NCBI RefSeq assembly: GCF_014640075.1
Contig: NZ_BMGG01000002.1
Location: 372,001 to 436,000 of the forward strand
Origin: Chelatococcus reniformis
Lineage (GTDB): Bacteria > Pseudomonadota > Alphaproteobacteria > Rhizobiales > Beijerinckiaceae
Reading direction: 5' to 3'
Length of the DNA: 64,000 nucleotides
Part shown: one piece after another, positions 41,438-54,400 of the stretch
How the letters are laid out: each line of letters begins with the position of its first letter
Numbering within the stretch: the first letter of the stretch is position 1
Position numbers and translations under genes: made by a program
The notes under the pieces: model-generated
What the model was told of the DNA's origin: nothing
Seen by the model: the letters and a program-made list of their open reading frames with translations, nothing else
Database searches by the model: none

Positions 41438-42895
41438 TCAGCCCAGGCTGCTGACGTATTTGACCTGCTGGAAGGCCTCGAGCCCTTCGATGCCGCCTTC
41501 CCGGCCCATGCCGCTGTCGCGCACGCCGCCGAAGGGGGTCTCGGGCAAGGAGGCCTGCCAGTGGTTGAGGACGACGTTGCCGGCGTCGATCCCCGCCGCC
41601 GCGCGCTCGGCCAGGCGGCTGTCGTGGGTCATGGCATAGGCGGCAAGGCCCACCGGAAGGCGGTTGGCCAAGGCGAGCGCCTCGTCGACATCGTCGAATG
41701 GCTTGAGCAGGGCGAGCGGGCCGAAGGGCTCCTCGTTGGCGGCCAGGCAATCGTCGGGTGCGTCGCGCAGCACGGTCGGTGCATAGAAGAAGCCGTGGTT
41801 GCCGCGCCGCTTGCCGCCGGCTGCGATGGTAACGCCGCGCGCCCGCGCGTCGGCGACCAGCCGGTCCATGGCGTCGATCCGGCGGCTCGTGGCGAGCGGC
41901 CCCATGCGCGTCGCCGGGTCGAAGCCGTCGCCGACGGTGATTGACGCCGCGGCGGCCGCGAACGCATCGGCAAAGCGATCGTAGATCGAGCGGTGCACGT
42001 AAAAGCGCGTCGGCGACGTGCAGATTTGGCCGGCATTGCGGAACTTGGCCGCCGCCGCCGCCCGGGCCGTCGCCTCGGCGTCCACGTCGCCGAAGACGAG
42101 CACCGGCGCATGGCCGCCGAGCTCCATGGTCATCGGCTTGAGGCCGAGCGCAGCCTGGGCGGCGAGCTGCCGGCCGACCGCGGTCGAGCCGGTGAAGGTG
42201 ACGCCGCGGATGATGGGAGAGGCGAGCAGCGTCTCGGAAATGAAGGCGGGATTGCCGAAGACGACGCTCAGGACGCCGGGTGGCAGGCCCGCCTCGTGGA
42301 GGATGCGGGCCATGGCGAGCGCCGTTGCCGGCGTCTCCTCGGCCGGCTTGATGATCACCGAGCAGCCGGCCGCCAAGGCGCTGGAGATCTTGCGCGCCGG
42401 TGTGATCGCCGGGGCGTTCCAGGGCGCGAAGGCGGCGATGGGCCCGAGGGGCTCGCGCAGCGCCAGCTGCCGGATGCCGCTCTGCCGCGCCGGGATGACG
42501 CGGCCGTAGGCGCGCCGGCCCTCCTCGGCGTTCCACTCGAACAGGCCGGCGGCGGTCTCGACCTCCACGCGCGCCTCCCCGAGCGGCTTGCCGAGCTCCA
42601 GCGTGATCAGGGTGGCGATGGCCTCCGCCTGCTCCCGCATCAGGTCCGCGGCCCGACGCAACACGCGCCCGCGCTCCAGCGGGGAGGTTCCCCGCCAGAG
42701 GCGGAAGCCGTCGGCACCCGCCGCCATCGCGGCGGCGAGGTCGTCCGCTGTGGCGTGCGGCAGCGCGCCGAGGACGGCCTCGGTCGCCGGGTTCAGCACC
42801 GGCGTCGTCGCTCGACCGCCGGCGGCGACGAAACGGCCGGCGATGAACAGCGCCAGGGCGGGATAGGCGGCGGCGGGCAATGGCGTGGCTCTCAT
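41438..42895 (-). CDS. NAD(P)-dependent aldehyde dehydrogenase (succinate-semialdehyde type)
   Basis: 485 residues of the ALDH fold. ELGGHAPVLVFGDVDAE carries the general-base glutamate and KFRNAGQICTSPTRFYVH the catalytic cysteine; FAPWNAPAITPARKISSALA is the NAD-binding region. The sequence is closest to NAD(P)-dependent succinate- or glutarate-semialdehyde dehydrogenases, but the family accepts many aldehydes. It is the last gene of the leftward five-gene operon, 17 bases after the alpha/beta-hydrolase stop, so the substrate is probably an aldehyde made in that pathway. Confidence 0.92.
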   Translation of the reverse strand: MRATPLPAAAYPALALFIAGRFVAAGGRATTPVLNPATEAVLGALPHATADDLAAAMAAGADGFRLWRGTSPLERGRVLRRAADLMREQAEAIATLITLELGKPLGEARVEVETAAGLFEWNAEEGRRAYGRVIPARQSGIRQLALREPLGPIAAFAPWNAPAITPARKISSALAAGCSVIIKPAEETPATALAMARILHEAGLPPGVLSVVFGNPAFISETLLASPIIRGVTFTGSTAVGRQLAAQAALGLKPMTMELGGHAPVLVFGDVDAEATARAAAAAKFRNAGQICTSPTRFYVHRSIYDRFADAFAAAAASITVGDGFDPATRMGPLATSRRIDAMDRLVADARARGVTIAAGGKRRGNHGFFYAPTVLRDAPDDCLAANEEPFGPLALLKPFDDVDEALALANRLPVGLAAYAMTHDSRLAERAAAGIDAGNVVLNHWQASLPETPFGGVRDSGMGREGGIEGLEAFQQVKYVSSLG

Positions 42896-42911
42896 GGGAG
42901 GTCCTGCCGCG

Positions 42912-43790
42912 TCACGCGGCGCGCGTGCCGGCCTCGATGCGCTCGAGGACGGGCTTGAGATAGCCGAGGAAGGCGGCCGGGTCCTCGCTCATGGGAAAGT
43001 GGCCGAGGCCCTTCATGATGGTGGCGTCGGCACCCTTGATGCGGGTCACGAGATCGAGCGTGTCGGCCGGCGTGCAGGAATAGTCGTATTCGCCGGTCAA
43101 GAGGTAGAGCGGGCAGCGGCTGGTATCGATGGCGCCGACCCGGCCGCGGATGTCGCCGTCGATCTTGTAGAAGTGCAGATCGCCTTTGAAGATGCCGGGG
43201 CCGCCCTGCATGTAGTGCCACAGGGTCTCCCAGCGCTCCGCCTCGGGCGACGCCGGTCCCATGAGCCCGGAGACGATGGAGGCGCAGACCTCGCCGCCGT
43301 GCACGTCCGGCCGGTGCGCCCAGGTAATATCGTAATAGGGGTCGACGTGGGCGCCGGATTGGAGGCCGATGATGGCGCGGAAGCGCTCGGGGTGGTCGAG
43401 AGCGAGGTTGAGCACCACGCGACCGCCGATCGAGCAGCCCATGACCACCGGCCGGTCCAGCGCGAGCGCGTCGGCCACGGTGAGGATCATCTCGACGTAG
43501 GCCTTGGTGGTCAGCTGGTACTCCTCCTCGTGCCAGCCGGCCGGCGGCGACGACTTGCCGTGCCAGGGCATGTCGAAGGAGATCACCCGGAAGCGCTGGA
43601 GGATGTCGTCGCTGGTCATCAGGCCGCGGTATTGGCGCCCGTCCGAGCCTGCCGTGTGCAGGCAGAGGAGGGGGATGCCCTGGCCGGCCTCCTCCACATA
43701 GATGCGGTGCGGCCGGCCGAAGAGGTCGAGGTTGAGATAGCGGCCGACGATCGGATCGAAGTGCGGGATCATGGCTTGTTGCAAAGTCAT
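42912..43790 (-). CDS. Alpha/beta-fold hydrolase
   Basis: 292 residues. The nucleophile elbow is VVMGCSIGGRVVLNLALDHP, the oxyanion region LLCLHTAGSDGRQ, and the catalytic histidine in GLGHFPMSEDP near the end. The sequence resembles ring-cleavage-product or lactone hydrolases. It begins four bases inside the preceding gene (ATGA) and ends just before the aldehyde dehydrogenase. In context it likely hydrolyses an ester, lactone or C-C bond of the pathway intermediate. Confidence 0.88.
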   Translation of the reverse strand: MTLQQAMIPHFDPIVGRYLNLDLFGRPHRIYVEEAGQGIPLLCLHTAGSDGRQYRGLMTSDDILQRFRVISFDMPWHGKSSPPAGWHEEEYQLTTKAYVEMILTVADALALDRPVVMGCSIGGRVVLNLALDHPERFRAIIGLQSGAHVDPYYDITWAHRPDVHGGEVCASIVSGLMGPASPEAERWETLWHYMQGGPGIFKGDLHFYKIDGDIRGRVGAIDTSRCPLYLLTGEYDYSCTPADTLDLVTRIKGADATIMKGLGHFPMSEDPAAFLGYLKPVLERIEAGTRAA

Positions 43791-44155
43791 GGCTTGGCCT
43801 CCAGCGGCCGGAGGGAGGCGAAGGCCTCCTTGATGTAGCGCAGGTTGGCCATCAGCGGCTGGAGATCGCCCTCGATGCGCAGCAGCCGCTGCTTCAGCAG
43901 CCCGAACAGGTCCTGGTAGCCGGGCGGCGGCACCGGCTGGAAGAATTGCTCCCAGGCCTCCTTCGGCGCGCGGAGCGCGAAGCTCCAGCTCGGCATGACG
44001 AAAGGCCCGCTCGTCACCGCCGCGATGCGCCCCTGCACGACGTCGACCAGGTAGGCCTCGGGCCCCAACTCGACCAGGAAGCGGGTGGTCAGGTAGCGCC
44101 CCCGATGCACCAGGCTCGCCTTGCCGTTCACCGTCTCGACCAATCTGTCGATCAT
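43787..44155 (-). CDS. Small SCP2-like protein, 122 aa
   Basis: 122 residues: LVETVNGKASLVHRGRYLTT, RFLVELGPEAYLVDVVQGRI, GPFVMPSWSFALRAPKEAWE, FQPVPPPGYQDLFGLLKQRL. The alternating beta-strand and helix pattern and hydrophobic content resemble SCP2 sterol-carrier domains, which bind acyl-CoA or lipids. The match is weak. It overlaps both operon neighbours by four bases (ATGA), so it is expected to be made in fixed ratio with the synthetase and hydrolase. Confidence 0.6.
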   Translation of the reverse strand: MIDRLVETVNGKASLVHRGRYLTTRFLVELGPEAYLVDVVQGRIAAVTSGPFVMPSWSFALRAPKEAWEQFFQPVPPPGYQDLFGLLKQRLLRIEGDLQPLMANLRYIKEAFASLRPLEAKP

Positions 44156-46296
44156 CGGTCTCCCTCCTCGTCGCCCCGGGTGGTGGTGTTGTCCTTGAGC
44201 CGAACGACCGCGTCGACGGCCTCCACGCCTTGTCCGACCGGGCCGATCAGCAGCGGATTGACCTCGGCCTCATAGATGCCGGGATCGGCCAGGCCGGCCA
44301 GGTGCGACATGGCGACCAGCACCTGCGCCAGCGCCTCCATGTCGCCGGCCGGCCGGCCGCGATACCCCTCCAGCGCCCGCAGGCCCTTCACCTCGGCAAT
44401 CATCGCCCACGCCGTCTCGGTGTCGATGGGAGCGGCGCGCAGCGACCGGTCGCGGTAGAGCTCCGTCAGCACGCCGCCGGCCGCCAGCATGATGAGCGGG
44501 CCGACCTGCGGATCGACCCGGTAGCCGACCAGCGCTTCGCCGAGGGCCGCGCGCATGGGCTGCACCAACACCCGCTCGGCGCTCACGCCGTGGCGCGCCG
44601 CCGCGGCGGCGATATCGCGGATGGCGCGATCCAGCTCCTCCCGTCCGGTGATGGCGAGGACGACACCGCCGACGTCCGACTTGTGGGTCACGGCGTGCGA
44701 CAGCAGCTTGGCGGCGACAGGGTAGGCGAACGGCAGCTCGGCCGGGACGGGCTCGCCGATGGTCAGCGCGACGGCGGGCGCATGGGGAACGCCCAGGCGG
44801 CCGAGCACGCCGTAGGCCTCGAGCTCGTCGAGGCTCGAGCCGGGGAGGGCCGGCGCCACGGCCGGCCGCGCGATCGCCGTGGGCGGGCGGCGCAGCAGCG
44901 CGGCACCGACCGCATCGGCGCAGCTCTCGGGGGTGCGGAAGGCCGGCACGCCGGCCTCCTCGAGCCGGCGAAGCGCTTCCGGCGCCTCCGGCACGATGAA
45001 GGCGGCGAGCGGCTTGGTGGCGCCGAGGCTGGCGGCGATCGGGGCGACAGCCAGGTCCGGCCGCGAACGCGCCGACGAGCCGACGACGGCAAGCACCAGG
45101 TCGAACTCCGGGGCGGCCAGCAGGGTGTCGAGCGCCGCCTTCATCACCGGCGGCCGGGTGCCGGCCAGCGTCAGGTCGACGATGCGGCCGTGCGCCGCCT
45201 CCACTCCTGCTGCGGCCAGGCGCCGAAACGTCTCCTCGCTCGGGGCCGCAACATCGATGCCGCGCAGGGCCAGCTGGTCGACGGCCATGGCGGCGCCGCC
45301 GCCCGTGGTGGTGACCACGCCCACGGTGGGCACGCGGCTTGCCGCGCGGCGCGGCTGCGTCCGCCGCAGCAGCGCCGGCGCCTCCAGCAGGCCCTCGAAG
45401 GTGTCGACGCGGGCGATGCCGAGGTCCGAGAGGAAGGCGTCGACGGCCGCGTCCTCGCCGGCGAGCGCGCCGGTATGGGACACGGCGAGCTCCGCCGCCG
45501 CGGCCGAGCGCCCGAGCTTGTAGGCCACGATCGGTTTGCCGCGCCGCGCCGCCTCCAGCGCGAAGGCGCGCAGGTCGTCGGCGCGGCGGATGCCCTCGAG
45601 GAACAGCAGGTAGGCGTCGATGCCGGGGTCGTCGAGTGTCGCCGTGCAGATCTCGCCGATGCCGAGGTCGACCTCGCCGCCCACCGACACCAGGCCGGCA
45701 AAGCCGATGCCGCGGGCCTTGCCGCGCGACACCAGGGCGCCGATGAGGCTGCCGCTCTGGGAGGCGACGAAGGTGCCGCCTGCCGGCAGGCCCGGCTCGG
45801 CGAAAGCCGCATTGGCGGTTAGCACCAGGCGGGCGCGCCCGTTGACGACGCCGAGGCTCGACGGCCCCAGGATGCGCAGGCCGGTCTCGGCGGCGATCCG
45901 CGCCAGGCTGGCCTGCCGGGCCTGCCCCTCCGCACCGGCGTCGGAAAAGCCGGCGGCGAGCACGGTGGCGACCTTGACGCCGGCCGCCGCGCACTCGGCT
46001 ACGGCGGCGACCGCCGCATCGGTCGGCGTCAGGATGAAGGCATGCTCGGGCGCCTCCGGCAGATCGGCCAGCGATCGCCAGGCGCGCTCGCCCTGCACGC
46101 TGTCACGCCGGGCGTTCACGGGAAAGATCGTTCCCTCGTAGCCGGCCGCGCGGAGGAATTGCAGCGGCCGGCCGGCCGTCTTGGCCGCTTCGTCCGAGGC
46201 GCCGACGAGGGCGATGCTGCGCGGTGCCAGCAGCGCATCGATGAAGCGACGGCCGCCGGCCTCTGTTCCGACGATGTTAGCCGACCTTTGCGGCAT
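44152..46296 (-). CDS. ADP-forming acyl-CoA synthetase (acetate-CoA ligase family)
   Basis: 714 residues with both halves fused: CoA-binding Rossmann and two succinyl-CoA-ligase-like domains (LAPRSIALVGASDEAAKTAG near residue 25, then SHTGALAGEDAAVDAFLSDL with the phospho-relay histidine near 270) and a C-terminal ATP-grasp domain (~480-700; VAAKLLSHAVTHKSDVGGVV). These enzymes turn an acid plus CoA plus ATP into acyl-CoA, ADP and phosphate, or run in reverse. The acid is unknown. It overlaps the acyl-CoA dehydrogenase by 20 bases and the SCP2-like gene by 4, so it is a core operon member. Confidence 0.9.
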   Translation of the reverse strand: MPQRSANIVGTEAGGRRFIDALLAPRSIALVGASDEAAKTAGRPLQFLRAAGYEGTIFPVNARRDSVQGERAWRSLADLPEAPEHAFILTPTDAAVAAVAECAAAGVKVATVLAAGFSDAGAEGQARQASLARIAAETGLRILGPSSLGVVNGRARLVLTANAAFAEPGLPAGGTFVASQSGSLIGALVSRGKARGIGFAGLVSVGGEVDLGIGEICTATLDDPGIDAYLLFLEGIRRADDLRAFALEAARRGKPIVAYKLGRSAAAAELAVSHTGALAGEDAAVDAFLSDLGIARVDTFEGLLEAPALLRRTQPRRAASRVPTVGVVTTTGGGAAMAVDQLALRGIDVAAPSEETFRRLAAAGVEAAHGRIVDLTLAGTRPPVMKAALDTLLAAPEFDLVLAVVGSSARSRPDLAVAPIAASLGATKPLAAFIVPEAPEALRRLEEAGVPAFRTPESCADAVGAALLRRPPTAIARPAVAPALPGSSLDELEAYGVLGRLGVPHAPAVALTIGEPVPAELPFAYPVAAKLLSHAVTHKSDVGGVVLAITGREELDRAIRDIAAAAARHGVSAERVLVQPMRAALGEALVGYRVDPQVGPLIMLAAGGVLTELYRDRSLRAAPIDTETAWAMIAEVKGLRALEGYRGRPAGDMEALAQVLVAMSHLAGLADPGIYEAEVNPLLIGPVGQGVEAVDAVVRLKDNTTTRGDEEGDR

Positions 46297-47443
46297 GGGG
46301 CGCTCTCTGCTCGAATCGACGATCGAAGATATGCTCCGCGACGCGGTTCTTGAGGATCTCGGTCGAGCCGCCGGCGATCATCCAGCCGCGCGTGCGCCGC
46401 ATGCAGTATTCGGCCAGGGCCTCGGTGCTGTAGCCCATGCCGCCCATCACCTGCACCGCCTCGTTGGCGGCGTCGAAGCCGGCCTGGTTGCAGGCGAGCT
46501 TGGCCATGGTGGTGTCGATCGCCGTGGGCAACTCCCCGGGCGGTGCCGACGCCGCGCGGTAGAGCAGCATCTGCGCTGCCTCCAGCTTCAGATACGCGTC
46601 TGCGAATTTCCATTGCAGCCCCTGGAACTCGCACAGCGGCCGGCCGAACTGCTGCCGCTCGAGAGCGTGCCGGCGGGCCAGCTCGAAGGCGTAGCGGCCG
46701 ACGGCCAGGGCGCGAGAGGCATTGCCGATGCGCTCGACGTTGAAGCCGGCGATCTGCTTCTTGAAGCCGCCGGGCCCGAGCAGGACGTTTTCGGCGGGGA
46801 TGCGACAATCCTCGAAATAGAGCTGCGACCATTCCTCGCCGCTCATGAACGCCGATGGCCGGCCCACCGTGAAGCCGGGCGTGTCGCGCTCCACCAGCAC
46901 CGAGCCGATGCCGCCGACCCCCGGGCCGAAGCGCACATAGATCAGGAACAGCGTGGCGTCCGGGCTATGCGTCGAGAACACCTTGGTGCCGTTGATGACG
47001 TAGCCGGCGCCGTCCTGGCGCGCGCTCGTCTTGAGGTCGGTCGCGGCCGATCCGGCCTCGGGCTCGCTCATGCCGAGGCTGATGACCTTTCGGCCGGCGA
47101 GGAGATCGGGCAGGAAGCGCTGCTTCTGCTCGGGGCTCGCGTATTCGGCGAAGGTGCGGATCGGGCCGAAGTTGCCCGCCTGCACCACGTCGGCGCTGCG
47201 GGGACAGACCGACGCCACCTGCTCGATGGCGATGACGGCATCCATCAGCGTGCCGCCCTGGCCACCGTCCGCCGCCGGCATGGTGATGCCGAGCAGGCCC
47301 TGGGCCCCGAACAGCGCGGCCACGTCGAAGGGGAAGCGGGGATTATGGGCCCGTTCGCGGGCGGCCGCGGCCAGATTGTCGTCCGCCAGCCGCCGCACGG
47401 AGGAGGCGAACAGCCGCTGCTCCTCGTTGAGTGTGAAATCCAT
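46277..47443 (-). CDS. Acyl-CoA dehydrogenase
   Basis: 388 residues, the first gene of the operon. FAD- and substrate-binding marks: GMSEPEAGSAATDLKTSARQ, YVINGTKVFSTHSPDATL, and the C-terminal VMGGMGYSTEALAEYCMRRT, WMIAGGSTEILKNRVAEHIF. The latter contains the catalytic-glutamate-region AGGSTEI, as in CaiA/FadE-type enzymes. It introduces a double bond in an acyl-CoA, giving electrons to ETF. GGAG is upstream of the start. It is divergent from a LysR gene with a palindrome in the shared gap. Confidence 0.93.
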   Translation of the reverse strand: MDFTLNEEQRLFASSVRRLADDNLAAAARERAHNPRFPFDVAALFGAQGLLGITMPAADGGQGGTLMDAVIAIEQVASVCPRSADVVQAGNFGPIRTFAEYASPEQKQRFLPDLLAGRKVISLGMSEPEAGSAATDLKTSARQDGAGYVINGTKVFSTHSPDATLFLIYVRFGPGVGGIGSVLVERDTPGFTVGRPSAFMSGEEWSQLYFEDCRIPAENVLLGPGGFKKQIAGFNVERIGNASRALAVGRYAFELARRHALERQQFGRPLCEFQGLQWKFADAYLKLEAAQMLLYRAASAPPGELPTAIDTTMAKLACNQAGFDAANEAVQVMGGMGYSTEALAEYCMRRTRGWMIAGGSTEILKNRVAEHIFDRRFEQRAPHAAKVG

Positions 47444-47556
47444 CGGCAGACCTGCTCCCGGGCTAAGCCCCTTGATGTCGTTGCATGATTTGCCTGGACG
47501 GTTTGCTGCGCAACCGACCAGATGTTAGCTTTGCATGAGTATTTGTGGGGTCGCAC

Positions 47557-47574
47557 TGCTCATGGCTATGAGCA
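47557..47574. promoter_or_regulatory. Palindrome between the operon and its LysR regulator
   Basis: TGCTCAT-GGCT-ATGAGCA is a perfect dyad with 7-bp arms; a half copy (GCATGAG) lies at 47533-47539. It is between the divergent operon and LysR starts, the normal place for a LysR-type binding site. It would be inside the coding frame if the LysR gene began at 47522, which argues for the later start. Confidence 0.6.
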
Positions 47575-47626
47575 TATGTCGGCCCAAGCGGCCGGCCGGG
47601 CCGCGCAGTCGGAAATGGCCAGGCCC

Positions 47627-48535
47627 ATGTCCAGGCGGATGCCGCCGCTCAACCCCCTGCACGTGTTCGAAGTCGCCGCGCGGCTGGGCGGCTTTACGCG
47701 CGCGGCCGAGGAGCTGAACGTCACCCAGTCTGCCGTGAGCCGGCAGGTGGCGGTGCTGGAGAGCTATTTTGGCCAGCGCCTGTTCCAGCGCGACCGCAGC
47801 GGTGCCAGCCTCACCGAGGCGGGGCGTGCCCTGGCGGTGGAGATCGCCGAACCCTTCGCCAGGCTCGCTGCCGCGGGCGGCCGCTTCGCCGAGCGCGAGA
47901 AGACCGATCCGGTGCGCCTGCGCGCCTACACCACCTTCGCCACCCGCTGGCTCATTCCGCGCCTGCCGGCTTTCCGCCTGCTCAACCCCGGCGTCTCCAT
48001 TTTCGTCAGCAACACGGTGAAGCCCGTCGACTTCGAGCGGGAGAACGTGGATCTGGCGATCCAGCTCGGCAGCGGCGATTGGCCGGGCCTTGCGGCGCAC
48101 CTTCTCTTCGCCGACGAGATCGAGCCGATCTGCAGCCCGGCGCTGCTGCGCAAAGGGCCGCCGCTCGAGAGCATCGAGGACCTTTCGGGGCATACGCTGC
48201 TGCACTCCTACTACCGGCGGCGCGACTGGTCCGACTGGCTCACCGAGGCCGGTCATCCAGAGGTGGAGCATGGCCGCTCGCTCGTCTTCGAGAGCTCGAC
48301 CCTGACCTATCAGGCCGCCGTCGAGGGGCTCGGCGTGGCGATCGGCCAGAACCGCCTGCTGGCCGACGAGTTCGCAGACCGGCGTCTCGTCCGTCCCTTT
48401 GCCCATCCGGTGACCCGCAACCTGGCCTACTACGTCGTCTGGCCAGCCGACCGGGAGCCGTCGCGCAAGATGCGGCTCCTGGTGTCGTGGCTGAAGCAGG
48501 AGGCGGACGGCGCCGGCGCGCCGCCGTCTGCGTAG
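47627..48535 (+). CDS. LysR-family (GcvA-like) transcriptional regulator
   Basis: 302 residues from the ATG at 47627, the usual length. The helix-turn-helix is PLHVFEVAARLGGFTRAAEE then LNVTQSAVSRQVAVLE, and the effector domain begins at PVRLRAYTTFATRWLIPRLP, typical of GcvA-like regulators. The frame is open upstream to 47522, but those residues contain the operator palindrome. It probably controls the divergent five-gene operon, with an acid or CoA-ester intermediate as effector (inferred). Confidence 0.88.
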   Translation: MSRRMPPLNPLHVFEVAARLGGFTRAAEELNVTQSAVSRQVAVLESYFGQRLFQRDRSGASLTEAGRALAVEIAEPFARLAAAGGRFAEREKTDPVRLRAYTTFATRWLIPRLPAFRLLNPGVSIFVSNTVKPVDFERENVDLAIQLGSGDWPGLAAHLLFADEIEPICSPALLRKGPPLESIEDLSGHTLLHSYYRRRDWSDWLTEAGHPEVEHGRSLVFESSTLTYQAAVEGLGVAIGQNRLLADEFADRRLVRPFAHPVTRNLAYYVVWPADREPSRKMRLLVSWLKQEADGAGAPPSA

Positions 48536-48565
48536 GCATGCGCCTCCGCGCCGCGACCCGCCGCG

Positions 48566-49804
48566 TCACTGATCCTTGAGCGCGAGCGCGCAGCCGCCTT
48601 CGGCCAGAGGACGGAAGGCCTTGTCGCCGGGCACCGTCTCCAGGAGCTTGTAGAAGTCCCACGGATACTTCGACTCGTCCGGGCTCTTCACCTGCAGCAG
48701 GTACATGTCGCGAATGACCCGGCCGTCGGCCCGAATCCTGGCGTCGTGGGTGTAGAAGTCGTTGATGGGCAGCTTGCGCATTTCGGCGGTGACGGCGGCG
48801 GCATCGTCGCTCTTGGCCGCTTCGATCGCCTTGAGATAGTGGCTGACGGCGCCATAGACCGCGGCCTGCAGGCTGCCGGGGGCACGGCCGTCGAAGCGCG
48901 CCATGAAGCGCTTGCTCCAGGCGCGGGTCGCGTCGTTCATATCCCAGTAGAAGCTGTCCGCCAGGAGCAGGCCCTGGGCGCTGGCGAGGCCGAGCGCATT
49001 GATGTCGGGCAGGTTGACGAGAAGCGCCGCGATGCTCTGTCCGCCGCCGACGATGCCGAACTCGGCGGCCTGCTTTTGCGCGTTGATCATGTCCGCGCCG
49101 GCGTTGGCGAGACCGATCACCTGGGCGCCCGAGGCCTGTGCCTGCAGCAGGAAGGAGGAGAAGTCGGCGGTGCCGAGCGGCGCGCGGACGGAGCCGAGCA
49201 CGGTGCCGCCGTTGGCCTTGACGACGCGGGCCGCCTGCTCTTCCAGGGCGTGGCCGAAGCTGTAGTCGGCGGTCAGGAAGAACCATTTGCCCAGCCCGCG
49301 ACGCACGACGGCGCCGGCGACCACATTGCCGAGCGCATAGTTGTCGTAGGCCCAGTGCACGCCGTTGGGCGAGCAGGCCTTGCCGGTGAGGTCGGGCGTG
49401 CCGGGCCCGGTCGCCAGGAACACCTTGTTCTTCTCACGGGTGATCTGCTGCACCGACAATGCCACGGCGGACGACACCACCTCGGTGATCATGTCGACCT
49501 TGTCGACGTCGTACCATTTGCGGGCGATGGCGGAGCCGACGTCGGCCTTGTTCTGGTGGTCGGCGGAGACGACCTCGACCGGCACGCCGGCGACCTTGCC
49601 GCCGAAATCCTCGACGGCCATCTGCGCGGCCAGGATGGCGCCCTTGCCCACGTTGTCGGCATAGGGGCCCGACAGGTCCGTCAACACGCCGATGCGGACG
49701 GTGCCGTCGCCAATCTCGGCCCGCGCCGCCTGGGGGGCGGCCAACGCCCCGAACGCCAGCGCGATGCCAGCCGCAATCGTGGTGATGGTGTTGAACACGC
49801 GCAT
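48566..49804 (-). CDS. ABC transporter substrate-binding protein (branched-chain amino-acid/Leu-type family)
   Basis: 412 residues. A signal peptide (TITTIAAGIALAFGALA...ARA) is followed by VRIGVLTDLSGPYADNVGKG, MAVEDFGGKVAGVPVEVVSA, the FFLTADYSFGHALE hinge region and DGRVIRDMYLLQVKSPDESK, the type I periplasmic-binding fold of the LivJ/amide/aromatic-acid family. The ATG at 49804 has GGGAGGAG upstream. No permease or ATPase genes are near; it may supply a transporter encoded elsewhere, or take up the substrate of the adjacent operon. It is on the other side of the LysR gene. Confidence 0.9.
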   Translation of the reverse strand: MRVFNTITTIAAGIALAFGALAAPQAARAEIGDGTVRIGVLTDLSGPYADNVGKGAILAAQMAVEDFGGKVAGVPVEVVSADHQNKADVGSAIARKWYDVDKVDMITEVVSSAVALSVQQITREKNKVFLATGPGTPDLTGKACSPNGVHWAYDNYALGNVVAGAVVRRGLGKWFFLTADYSFGHALEEQAARVVKANGGTVLGSVRAPLGTADFSSFLLQAQASGAQVIGLANAGADMINAQKQAAEFGIVGGGQSIAALLVNLPDINALGLASAQGLLLADSFYWDMNDATRAWSKRFMARFDGRAPGSLQAAVYGAVSHYLKAIEAAKSDDAAAVTAEMRKLPINDFYTHDARIRADGRVIRDMYLLQVKSPDESKYPWDFYKLLETVPGDKAFRPLAEGGCALALKDQ

Positions 49805-49965
49805 GTCTCCTCCCGCGATCGCGCCGGAGGCGTAGGTGCCCCGCGTCGGCGCGCTTGTGGACGGGAAGCTGGCGCGCGGCTCCCGGGCCGGCAAGTTCCG
49901 AATCCTCGGTGCGCCCCGACCTTTTCTCATGGCGGGCTAGCGACGGCTTTGGGCTTTCAAATCGA

Positions 49966-53183: not shown

Positions 53184-53506
53184 TGATGCACTGCACTATT
53201 TTTGATTAGTCTCCGCTTGCGCGCCGCGTAGATTTGCGGAGGGCGCAGTTTCACGTGGGGATCTGCAAAATTGGCGAGCTCTGATGCCACCGGTCGGCGC
53301 TTCCCGACGAGCCTCGCCCCTGACGAGTTTCGAAAGAAAAACGTTGGGGTGCAAAGGCCACCTTGGGCGCCGGTGAGAGCTCTGTTCCCAGGTGGTTTGC
53401 ACTTCGCAGCTACAATCACCAGACCGCGATAGTGCCGCCGGCTAACTAGCAGGCGGTGGGCGGTCATTCGTCCTGAAATCATCTTTCTGGCAATATGGAG
53501 CGTATT

Positions 53507-54400
53507 ATGGCGGATGTGTCCTACGCGCGTTTTTACACGTACAATGACGGAACGGGCTTGATCACCTCTGAACAAGGCACCGCGGCCGACCCGGCTGTGC
53601 TCGATGCGCCGGAGCCCCCGACCGCGCTGGGCGTCGGCGACTCGGCCGACATCACGTTCCAAGGCACGACGGCTTCCTGGGTCTATCAGGGTATCAGCGC
53701 GACAGGTCAGCCGTTCTTCGAGAGCCAGGACGGCACCACGCATATCTTTCTGTCGCCCGACGGTGCCCTCGATCCGGGCGACCCGGTGCCGCCGTTTGCC
53801 CCCGACGCCTACTGCTTCCTCGCCGGGACGATGATCGCGACGCCGGAAGGTGAGCGCGCGGTCGAGACGCTGGCGGCGGGCGATCTGGTGCTGACCGCCA
53901 GCGGCCAGACCCGGCCGGTGCTGTGGGTCGGCCGACAGACTGTCGCCGCCGTGTTTGCCGACCCGATGCGCAGCTATCCCGTCCGCGTGGCTGCCGGGGC
54001 GCTCGCTGAAGGCGTTCCGACCCGCGACCTCTATGTGTCGCCCGACCACGGGGTCCTCGTGGACGATGTGCTCGTGCAGGCCAGCGCGCTGGTCAACGGC
54101 ACGACCATCACCCGCGTCACCCAGCCGGAGGCGACGTTCACCTACTATCACATCGAACTGGAAGACCACGCTCTGGTGCTCGCCAACGGCACCGCCGCGG
54201 AGACCTTCGTCGACAACGTCAGCCGGCGCCAGTTCGACAACCACGCGGAGTACGATGCGCTGTTCGGCGACAGCCGCGCCCGTATTCCGGAGCTCGACCT
54301 GCCGCGGGTGAAGTCGGCGCGTCAGCTGTCGCGGGTCCTTCGCGATCAACTGGCGGCCCGGGCCGCGGCGTTGGGCTTCCTGGTCGAGGCAGCCGCCTAA
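53507..54400 (+). CDS. Hint-domain (Hedgehog/intein-fold) protein, 297 aa
   Basis: The N-terminal ~100 residues have repeated short beta motifs (VSYARFYTYNDGTGLI, ITFQGTTASWVYQGIS, FFESQDGTTHIFLSPDGALD). A Hint_2 domain follows (~103-230): YCFLAGTMIATPEGERAVET with the leading Cys, LAAGDLVLTASGQTRPVLWV, LYVSPDHGVLVDDVLVQASA and YYHIELEDHALVLANGTAAE. The key Cys of the first strand and the SPDH and HIELEDH histidines are present, so self-processing is possible. The last ~60 residues are charged and helical. No secretion genes or toxins are adjacent. The ATG at 53507 was chosen over 53495. Confidence 0.85.
   Translation: MADVSYARFYTYNDGTGLITSEQGTAADPAVLDAPEPPTALGVGDSADITFQGTTASWVYQGISATGQPFFESQDGTTHIFLSPDGALDPGDPVPPFAPDAYCFLAGTMIATPEGERAVETLAAGDLVLTASGQTRPVLWVGRQTVAAVFADPMRSYPVRVAAGALAEGVPTRDLYVSPDHGVLVDDVLVQASALVNGTTITRVTQPEATFTYYHIELEDHALVLANGTAAETFVDNVSRRQFDNHAEYDALFGDSRARIPELDLPRVKSARQLSRVLRDQLAARAAALGFLVEAAA

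Follow-up and report, generated by a model that had tools for sequence, protein, structure and literature searches.

What does a small lipid-carrier-like protein do in the middle of a catabolic operon? The question is raised by a 64,000-nucleotide stretch of Chelatococcus reniformis DNA (contig NZ_BMGG01000002.1, positions 372,001 to 436,000; hereafter the window, to which all positions refer unless a locus is named). In it, a 122-residue SCP2-like protein (SCP2L; 43787..44155, minus strand) is encoded together with an alpha/beta hydrolase of 292 residues (ABH; 42912..43790, minus strand; Abhydrolase_1, PF00561, 64.4 bits), in an operon that also contains an acyl-CoA dehydrogenase family protein (ACAD), an NDP-forming acyl-CoA synthetase (ACS) and an aldehyde dehydrogenase (ALDH). 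We propose, at a probability of roughly 60%, that SCP2L and the putative Ser-His-Asp hydrolase ABH form a two-part hydrolase that opens unsaturated lactones (butenolides or enol-lactone isomers) to 4-oxo acids.

SCP2L is usually annotated as a hypothetical protein, and scans of the Pfam and NCBIfam libraries with the window protein returned no match. Pfam SCP2 (PF02036) did not match it at E values up to 10, nor the SCP2L of loci L170 and L237, of the catechol-associated (cat-type) kind described below, at E up to 0.1. The same model matched one of eight members of an SCP2L alignment (A1; E 0.009), and the N-terminal domain of a homologous natural fusion (L043) cleared its cut-off (23.9 versus 21.3 bits). 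An AlphaFold2 model of SCP2L built with 43 sequences reached a pLDDT of 95.3 and a pTM of 0.86. Its 39 best Foldseek matches in the PDB were all SCP2 proteins or alkylsulfatase-type enzymes, at 10–20% identity, and included the sterol-carrier family proteins 1wfr, 2cx7 and UbiJ (6h6o), with E from 8e-7 and TM scores of up to 0.74; a sequence search of the PDB with the SCP2L profile found nothing. The model, its matches and the L043 domain thus agree with the SCP2-like character that an earlier note on this DNA had assigned to the protein, and we conclude that it has a predicted SCP2 fold. A general SCP2 search of its own genome gave one other match, on contig 3. The alkylsulfatases SdsA1 and Pisa1, both among the fold matches, carry an SCP2-like domain within a hydrolase acting on a hydrophobic substrate; their catalytic domain is metallo-beta-lactamase-like, whereas the partner of SCP2L in the window is an alpha/beta hydrolase.

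The earlier note held that the small protein is obligately coupled to both the synthetase and the hydrolase. When named genomes were scanned with an alignment of 17 ABH sequences (A2), at least 593 stretches matched, and 584 of these coded for a relative; the top 80 loci (of at least 584), picked by ABH independently of SCP2L, were analysed. SCP2L was linked to ABH in 78 of these 80, directly upstream in 76 and fused in two, so the coupling to the hydrolase stands as nearly universal. ACAD and ACS lay directly upstream on the same strand in just nine (L082, L083, L084, L086, L089, L098, L106, L109 and L136); the gene set is therefore conserved but not obligate, and we rejected the synthetase as an obligate partner. 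A tenth locus, L105, is truncated by a contig end, and ACAD and ACS occur nearby on the opposite strand in L094, L111 and L119. The remaining ABH relatives have different gene neighbourhoods, which in many cases look catabolic. Two of the 80 loci showed no linked SCP2L. The L103 contig starts near the ABH start, with an apparent SCP2L end in another frame; in L123 a different gene precedes ABH. At L123:6464-7324, the one clear case of an ABH lacking SCP2L, the gene follows the end of an apparent CoxL-like molybdenum hydroxylase gene, perhaps an effect of binning or rearrangement. An apparent frameshift interrupts the SCP2L gene of L117.

Wider sampling gave the same picture. ABH adjoined or was fused to SCP2L in all of the 48 loci examined first, which except for the window had been selected for the presence of SCP2L. 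Among 165 ABH copies overall, many of them likewise selected, SCP2L was adjacent in 150, fused in 13 and missing in two (L103 and L123), and the 13 fusions were spread over seven clades of a midpoint-rooted FastTree phylogeny. Distance matrices of the two proteins correlated (r 0.87, 162 pairs; none of 1,000 permutations as high), a result that shared descent also produces. SCP2L profile matches were found in 37 of 385 genomes of the class, counting fusions and the own genome, and a search with the single protein matched 4 of 60 close relatives, again with the own genome included. SCP2L occurs in Proteobacteria, Rhodococcus and Peribacillus, and by organism count only on Halalkalicoccus plasmids; it was not found in phage records. 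Together, these results provide good support for ABH, rather than the synthetase, as the fixed partner of SCP2L. We know of no SCP2 protein with near-obligate pairing to one hydrolase family, and a limited literature search, which papers worded 'alpha/beta' may escape, found no described SCP2–hydrolase pair. The genome of C. reniformis itself encodes a second, fused SCP2L–ABH protein of 455 residues (L042:5101-6468, contig 7), adjoining another aldehyde dehydrogenase gene. A Hyphomicrobiales metagenome-assembled genome has two SCP2L–ABH pairs some 8 kb apart, the second of which (L084:17172-17552) is located downstream of an MmgE/PrpD gene, and the pair recurs with FAD_binding_2 and 3-hydroxyisobutyrate-dehydrogenase-like proteins in L118, L125, L132, L057, L061 and L063.

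Residue conservation and gene neighbourhood bear on the chemistry of the pair. In ABH, the GxSxG serine S120, D236 and H264 are invariant across 17 aligned relatives, and we assign them as the putative catalytic triad. Its best NCBIfam models are of the PcaD type, that is, enol-lactonases, although the PcaD model TIGR02427 is missed by a wide interval (63.1 versus a cut-off of 255.85 bits). ABH thus shares with PcaD (2xua) the alpha/beta hydrolase fold and, in the cat-type clade, the place in a catechol pathway; it differs in its low score and in having SCP2L alongside. In SCP2L, three polar residues are conserved across 160 sequences with gaps ignored (D82 in 143, K109 in 136 and R116 in 153), and the cat-type proteins add S52, K54 and K103 (window positions). 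To judge from these patterns, the six residues could bind a carboxylate. A succinate-semialdehyde-dehydrogenase (SSADH)-like ALDH adjoins the pair not only in the window but also in Rhodococcus and Peribacillus, where neither ACAD nor ACS is nearby, which suggests that the aldehyde stems from the pair itself. Genes of the metallo-beta-lactamase fold are also among the neighbours, one of them, in Martelella, annotated as AttM lactonase. Both kinds of neighbour fit lactone and 4-oxo acid chemistry.

The closest indication of a substrate comes from one tight clade, the cat-type, whose profile-building SCP2L members score 208–235 bits where the other loci then known reach at most 108. Its ABHs are monophyletic as well (38 of 38 in one clade, support 1.0). 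On plasmids of Sulfitobacter CB2047 and D7, Limimaricola, Marinibacterium, Phaeobacter (two units), Ruegeria and Roseivivax the cat-type pair lies next to benzoate and catechol genes; on those of Thioclava, Alloyangia and Sagittula it lies next to muconate cycloisomerase, and the Leisingera pair has BKACE, transporter and LysR genes nearby. Muconate cycloisomerase was above cut-off on 11 of 12 cat-type plasmids. Muconolactone isomerase (CatC) was absent from all ten plasmids searched whole with PF02426 (MIase), and tblastn with three CatC proteins found it only in L230, L231 and L234 and in none of the pair-bearing stretches searched, L236–L238 among them. SCP2L is, like CatC, a small protein in the equivalent operon position, but has no detectable sequence relation to it: PF02426 matched neither the window SCP2L nor the eight A1 members nor the SCP2L of L170 and L237. 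The CatC fold also differs from the SCP2 fold. A conjugative Roseivivax plasmid (NZ_CP045320.1, 30000-55137; L237 and L238) carries what seems to be a complete island from benzoate to central metabolism in one piece. It starts with cycloisomerase, a Rieske protein (benA by position), benB, benC, benD and five transporter genes, and continues with LysR, dioxygenase, SCP2L, ABH, a short gene, benE, IclR, CoA-transferase A and B, and pcaF. On the Sulfitobacter D7 plasmid the pair is beside ben genes, and the cluster dioxygenase carries the catechol-dioxygenase N-terminal Pfam domain. Strain D7 grows on benzoate, and a published report on it describes all catechol-branch genes except CatC (eLife 2023, PMC9873259). 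That report was the only relevant one in our limited literature search, which found no substitute for CatC.

A census of 395 Rhodobacteraceae genomes extended these observations. Cat-type SCP2L was found in 28 genomes (at least 172 bits; seven more gave weak matches of at most 59 bits) and MIase above cut-off in 20. Taken across all 395, the two overlapped in 2 genomes against about 1.4 expected, which is near chance; we therefore discarded this unconditioned comparison and conditioned the census on muconate cycloisomerase. The latter was tested in 108 of the genomes, namely the 28 positives and 80 controls, of which 18 were CatC-positive and 62 had a strong intradiol dioxygenase match and neither CatC nor cat-type SCP2L. 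Thirty carried it above cut-off: 26 with SCP2L (two of these with CatC as well), two with CatC only and two with neither, the last four being the only controls of the 80 to have it. CatC is thus missing from 24 of the 26 cat-type genomes that bear a cycloisomerase. The two that have it are G560, which contains an additional, separate catB-catC-catA operon, and G651, which carries it on a different contig; since the L165 plasmid seems to be part of G651, the plasmid and genome evidence partly overlap. In 26 of the 28 genomes an intradiol dioxygenase gene is within 5 kb of SCP2L; we use this general name because only 2 of the 395 genomes pass the NCBIfam cut-off for catechol 1,2-dioxygenase. Open reading frame families present in at least 22 of the 28 stretches were SCP2L, ABH, the dioxygenase and LysR, plus several read as antisense or other-frame, and a BKACE gene was present in 16. 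In G809 and G569, SCP2L comes directly after catB, with about 35 bp between the match ends; in G560 and G463, CatC is found between catB and catA. Taken together, the plasmids and the census suggest that the substrate of the pair in benzoate clusters is a lactone, not an acyl-CoA.

These results allow us to propose how the pair might work. SCP2L would hold a gamma-butenolide, perhaps shifting its double bond in an isomerization, and ABH, possibly in a physical complex with it, would then hydrolyse the enol lactone to the 4-oxo acid. In Rhodobacteraceae benzoate clusters, the pair would take over from CatC, and possibly from PcaD, by converting muconolactone to 3-oxoadipate. The related pair of the window would yield a 4-oxo acid or semialdehyde, the product would be oxidized by the neighbouring ALDH, and ACS and ACAD may handle a CoA-linked acid of the same route, whether before or after this step, under LysR control. 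More tentatively, and at somewhat less than an even chance, we suggest the fuller scheme of a hitherto unrecognized two-component butenolide hydrolase in which the SCP2 fold is itself catalytic (2-en-4-olide to enol lactone), with one clade replacing CatC, perhaps also PcaD, in Rhodobacteraceae and the window clade feeding an NDP-forming-synthetase/ACAD route by way of a 4-oxo acid semialdehyde. If correct, this would explain what a widespread protein annotated as hypothetical does and would close the gap left by the documented absence of CatC from benzoate breakdown in the alga-associated Sulfitobacter D7; it might also show that the SCP2 fold can be put to catalytic use.

Several observations weigh against a lactone-opening pair. 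The window pair lies outside the cat-type clade, and the substrate of that clade is therefore not transferable to it. Not every cat-type pair has the expected company: the Xanthobacter plasmid has no cycloisomerase, its cat-type stretch containing no annotated catechol gene, and G547 and G448 carry the pair with neither a cycloisomerase nor, in the stretches examined, a nearby dioxygenase. The dioxygenases of the clusters fall well short of the NCBIfam cut-off for catechol 1,2-dioxygenase. A separate PcaD was above cut-off on 2 of the 12 cat-type plasmids (D7 and Limimaricola) in a search that covered these plasmids and not chromosomes, and one on the Sagittula plasmid reached 229 of 256 bits; on these plasmids, therefore, the enol-lactonase may be an enzyme other than ABH. 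The pair-associated plasmid ABHs themselves score 37–68 bits with TIGR02427. Conversely, G767 and G761 carry a cycloisomerase without CatC and without cat-type SCP2L, and other routes therefore exist. In these two genomes, which also have a catechol-type dioxygenase, the gene after catB belongs to the GST family and perhaps provides another CatC substitute (G767, L232:8997-9632, assigned by likeness; G761, L233:9231-9929, assigned by Pfam); a distant alpha/beta hydrolase is encoded nearby. Last, in the natural fusion of L109, from a metagenome-assembled genome, both domains were modelled but their packing against each other was not confident (pLDDT 80.4, pTM 0.62), and although its fold search returned the enol-lactonase 2xua, zearalenone lactonase and AidH among many alpha/beta hydrolases, such lactonase matches are unspecific for this fold.

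Part of this evidence could also come from a non-catalytic SCP2L of the kind suggested by the earlier note, a lipid-carrier-like subunit that presents a hydrophobic ester or thioester to ABH, with no isomerization and with substrates varying by clade. The predicted fold, with Pisa1 and SdsA1 among its matches, and the diversity of the pair's gene contexts speak for such a subunit. The conserved D82, K109 and R116 together with the cat-type S52, K54 and K103 suggest a polar ligand or catalysis instead, and the missing CatC requires an isomerase; we consider a pure carrier unlikely. Slightly less probable still is that the window genes encode a pathway of CoA esters for an acid that is branched or contains sulfur, in which ABH would be a thioesterase or ester hydrolase and lactones would play no part. 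In its favour, the nearest models of ACAD are 3-sulfinopropanoyl-CoA desulfinase and acryloyl-CoA reductase, both matched far under their cut-offs, and 3-hydroxyacyl-CoA dehydrogenase and PaaI thioesterase genes come after the operon in Agrobacterium; against it stands the SSADH-like ALDH, which accompanies the pair also in Rhodococcus and Peribacillus, where ACAD and ACS are not nearby. Finally, SCP2L acting alone as a non-orthologous CatC, with ABH an ordinary enol-lactonase analogous to PcaD and a mere genome neighbour, would account for the position of SCP2L after catB in G809 and G569 and for the PcaD-type models of the window ABH, but is improbable given that SCP2L keeps to this hydrolase family away from catechol clusters as well, that 13 of the 165 copies are fusions of the two, and that two plasmids with their own PcaD retain ABH.

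We return to the proposed two-part lactone hydrolase and its setting in the window, where all seven genes of the earlier description are present, six of them clearing Pfam cut-offs and SCP2L being the sole exception. ACAD (46277..47443, minus strand; 388 residues) is the first gene of the operon and matches Acyl-CoA_dh_1, N and M above cut-off; its best NCBIfam model, 3-sulfinopropanoyl-CoA desulfinase, is below it (274 versus 600 bits). ACS (44152..46296, minus strand; 714 residues) combines CoA_binding_2, Succ_CoA_lig and ATP-grasp_5, the Pfam domain set of an NDP(ADP)-forming acyl-CoA synthetase. Acetate- and 4-hydroxybutyrate-CoA ligase models match it at 283 and 274 bits, both under their cut-offs (567 bits for TIGR02717, matched at 283), so no substrate can be named. 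ALDH (41438..42895, minus strand; 485 residues; Aldedh, 505 bits) is SSADH-like: TIGR01780 falls short of its curated cut-off (453.5 versus 646.35 bits), yet is the best among 44 matched models. A GcvA-like LysR-type regulator diverges from the operon (47522..48535, plus strand; HTH_1 and LysR_substrate above cut-off; 277.6 of 288 bits with the GcvA subfamily model), its true start probably lying downstream of 47522. Beyond it is the gene for a periplasmic branched-chain-amino-acid-type substrate-binding protein (48566..49804, minus strand; ATG at 49804 in a frame that opens at 49930; Peripla_BP_6, 359.6 bits). The overlaps described by the earlier note hold for ACAD/ACS (20 bp), ACS/SCP2L (4 bp) and SCP2L/ABH (4 bp); ABH and ALDH are separated by a 16-bp gap.

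The full order of binding protein, divergent LysR, ACAD, ACS, SCP2L, ABH and ALDH is repeated on an Agrobacterium larrymoorei plasmid (L005) and in Enterovirga rhinocerotis (L106), at 55–80% identity by gene, with the LysR gene in the equivalent position and a binding protein, equally placed, that is 75% and 79% identical, respectively. The gene order is thus conserved in other genomes, and our limited literature search, mostly at the title and abstract level, likewise found no described pathway with this gene set. The 7-bp-arm palindrome noted earlier near the LysR start does exist (TGCTCAT-N4-ATGAGCA, 47557..47574; no strand). It is missing from all five relatives with an extractable intergenic region (L005, L082, L084, L086 and L106; L083 and L089 yielded none), and because, by our estimate, chance alone would give about 0.5 dyads of this kind per 260 bp, it is no evidence of an operator; we rejected it as one. 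Elsewhere in the window, a Hint_2-domain protein is encoded at 53495-54400, in a region (52–54 kb) where the G+C content falls to 58%.

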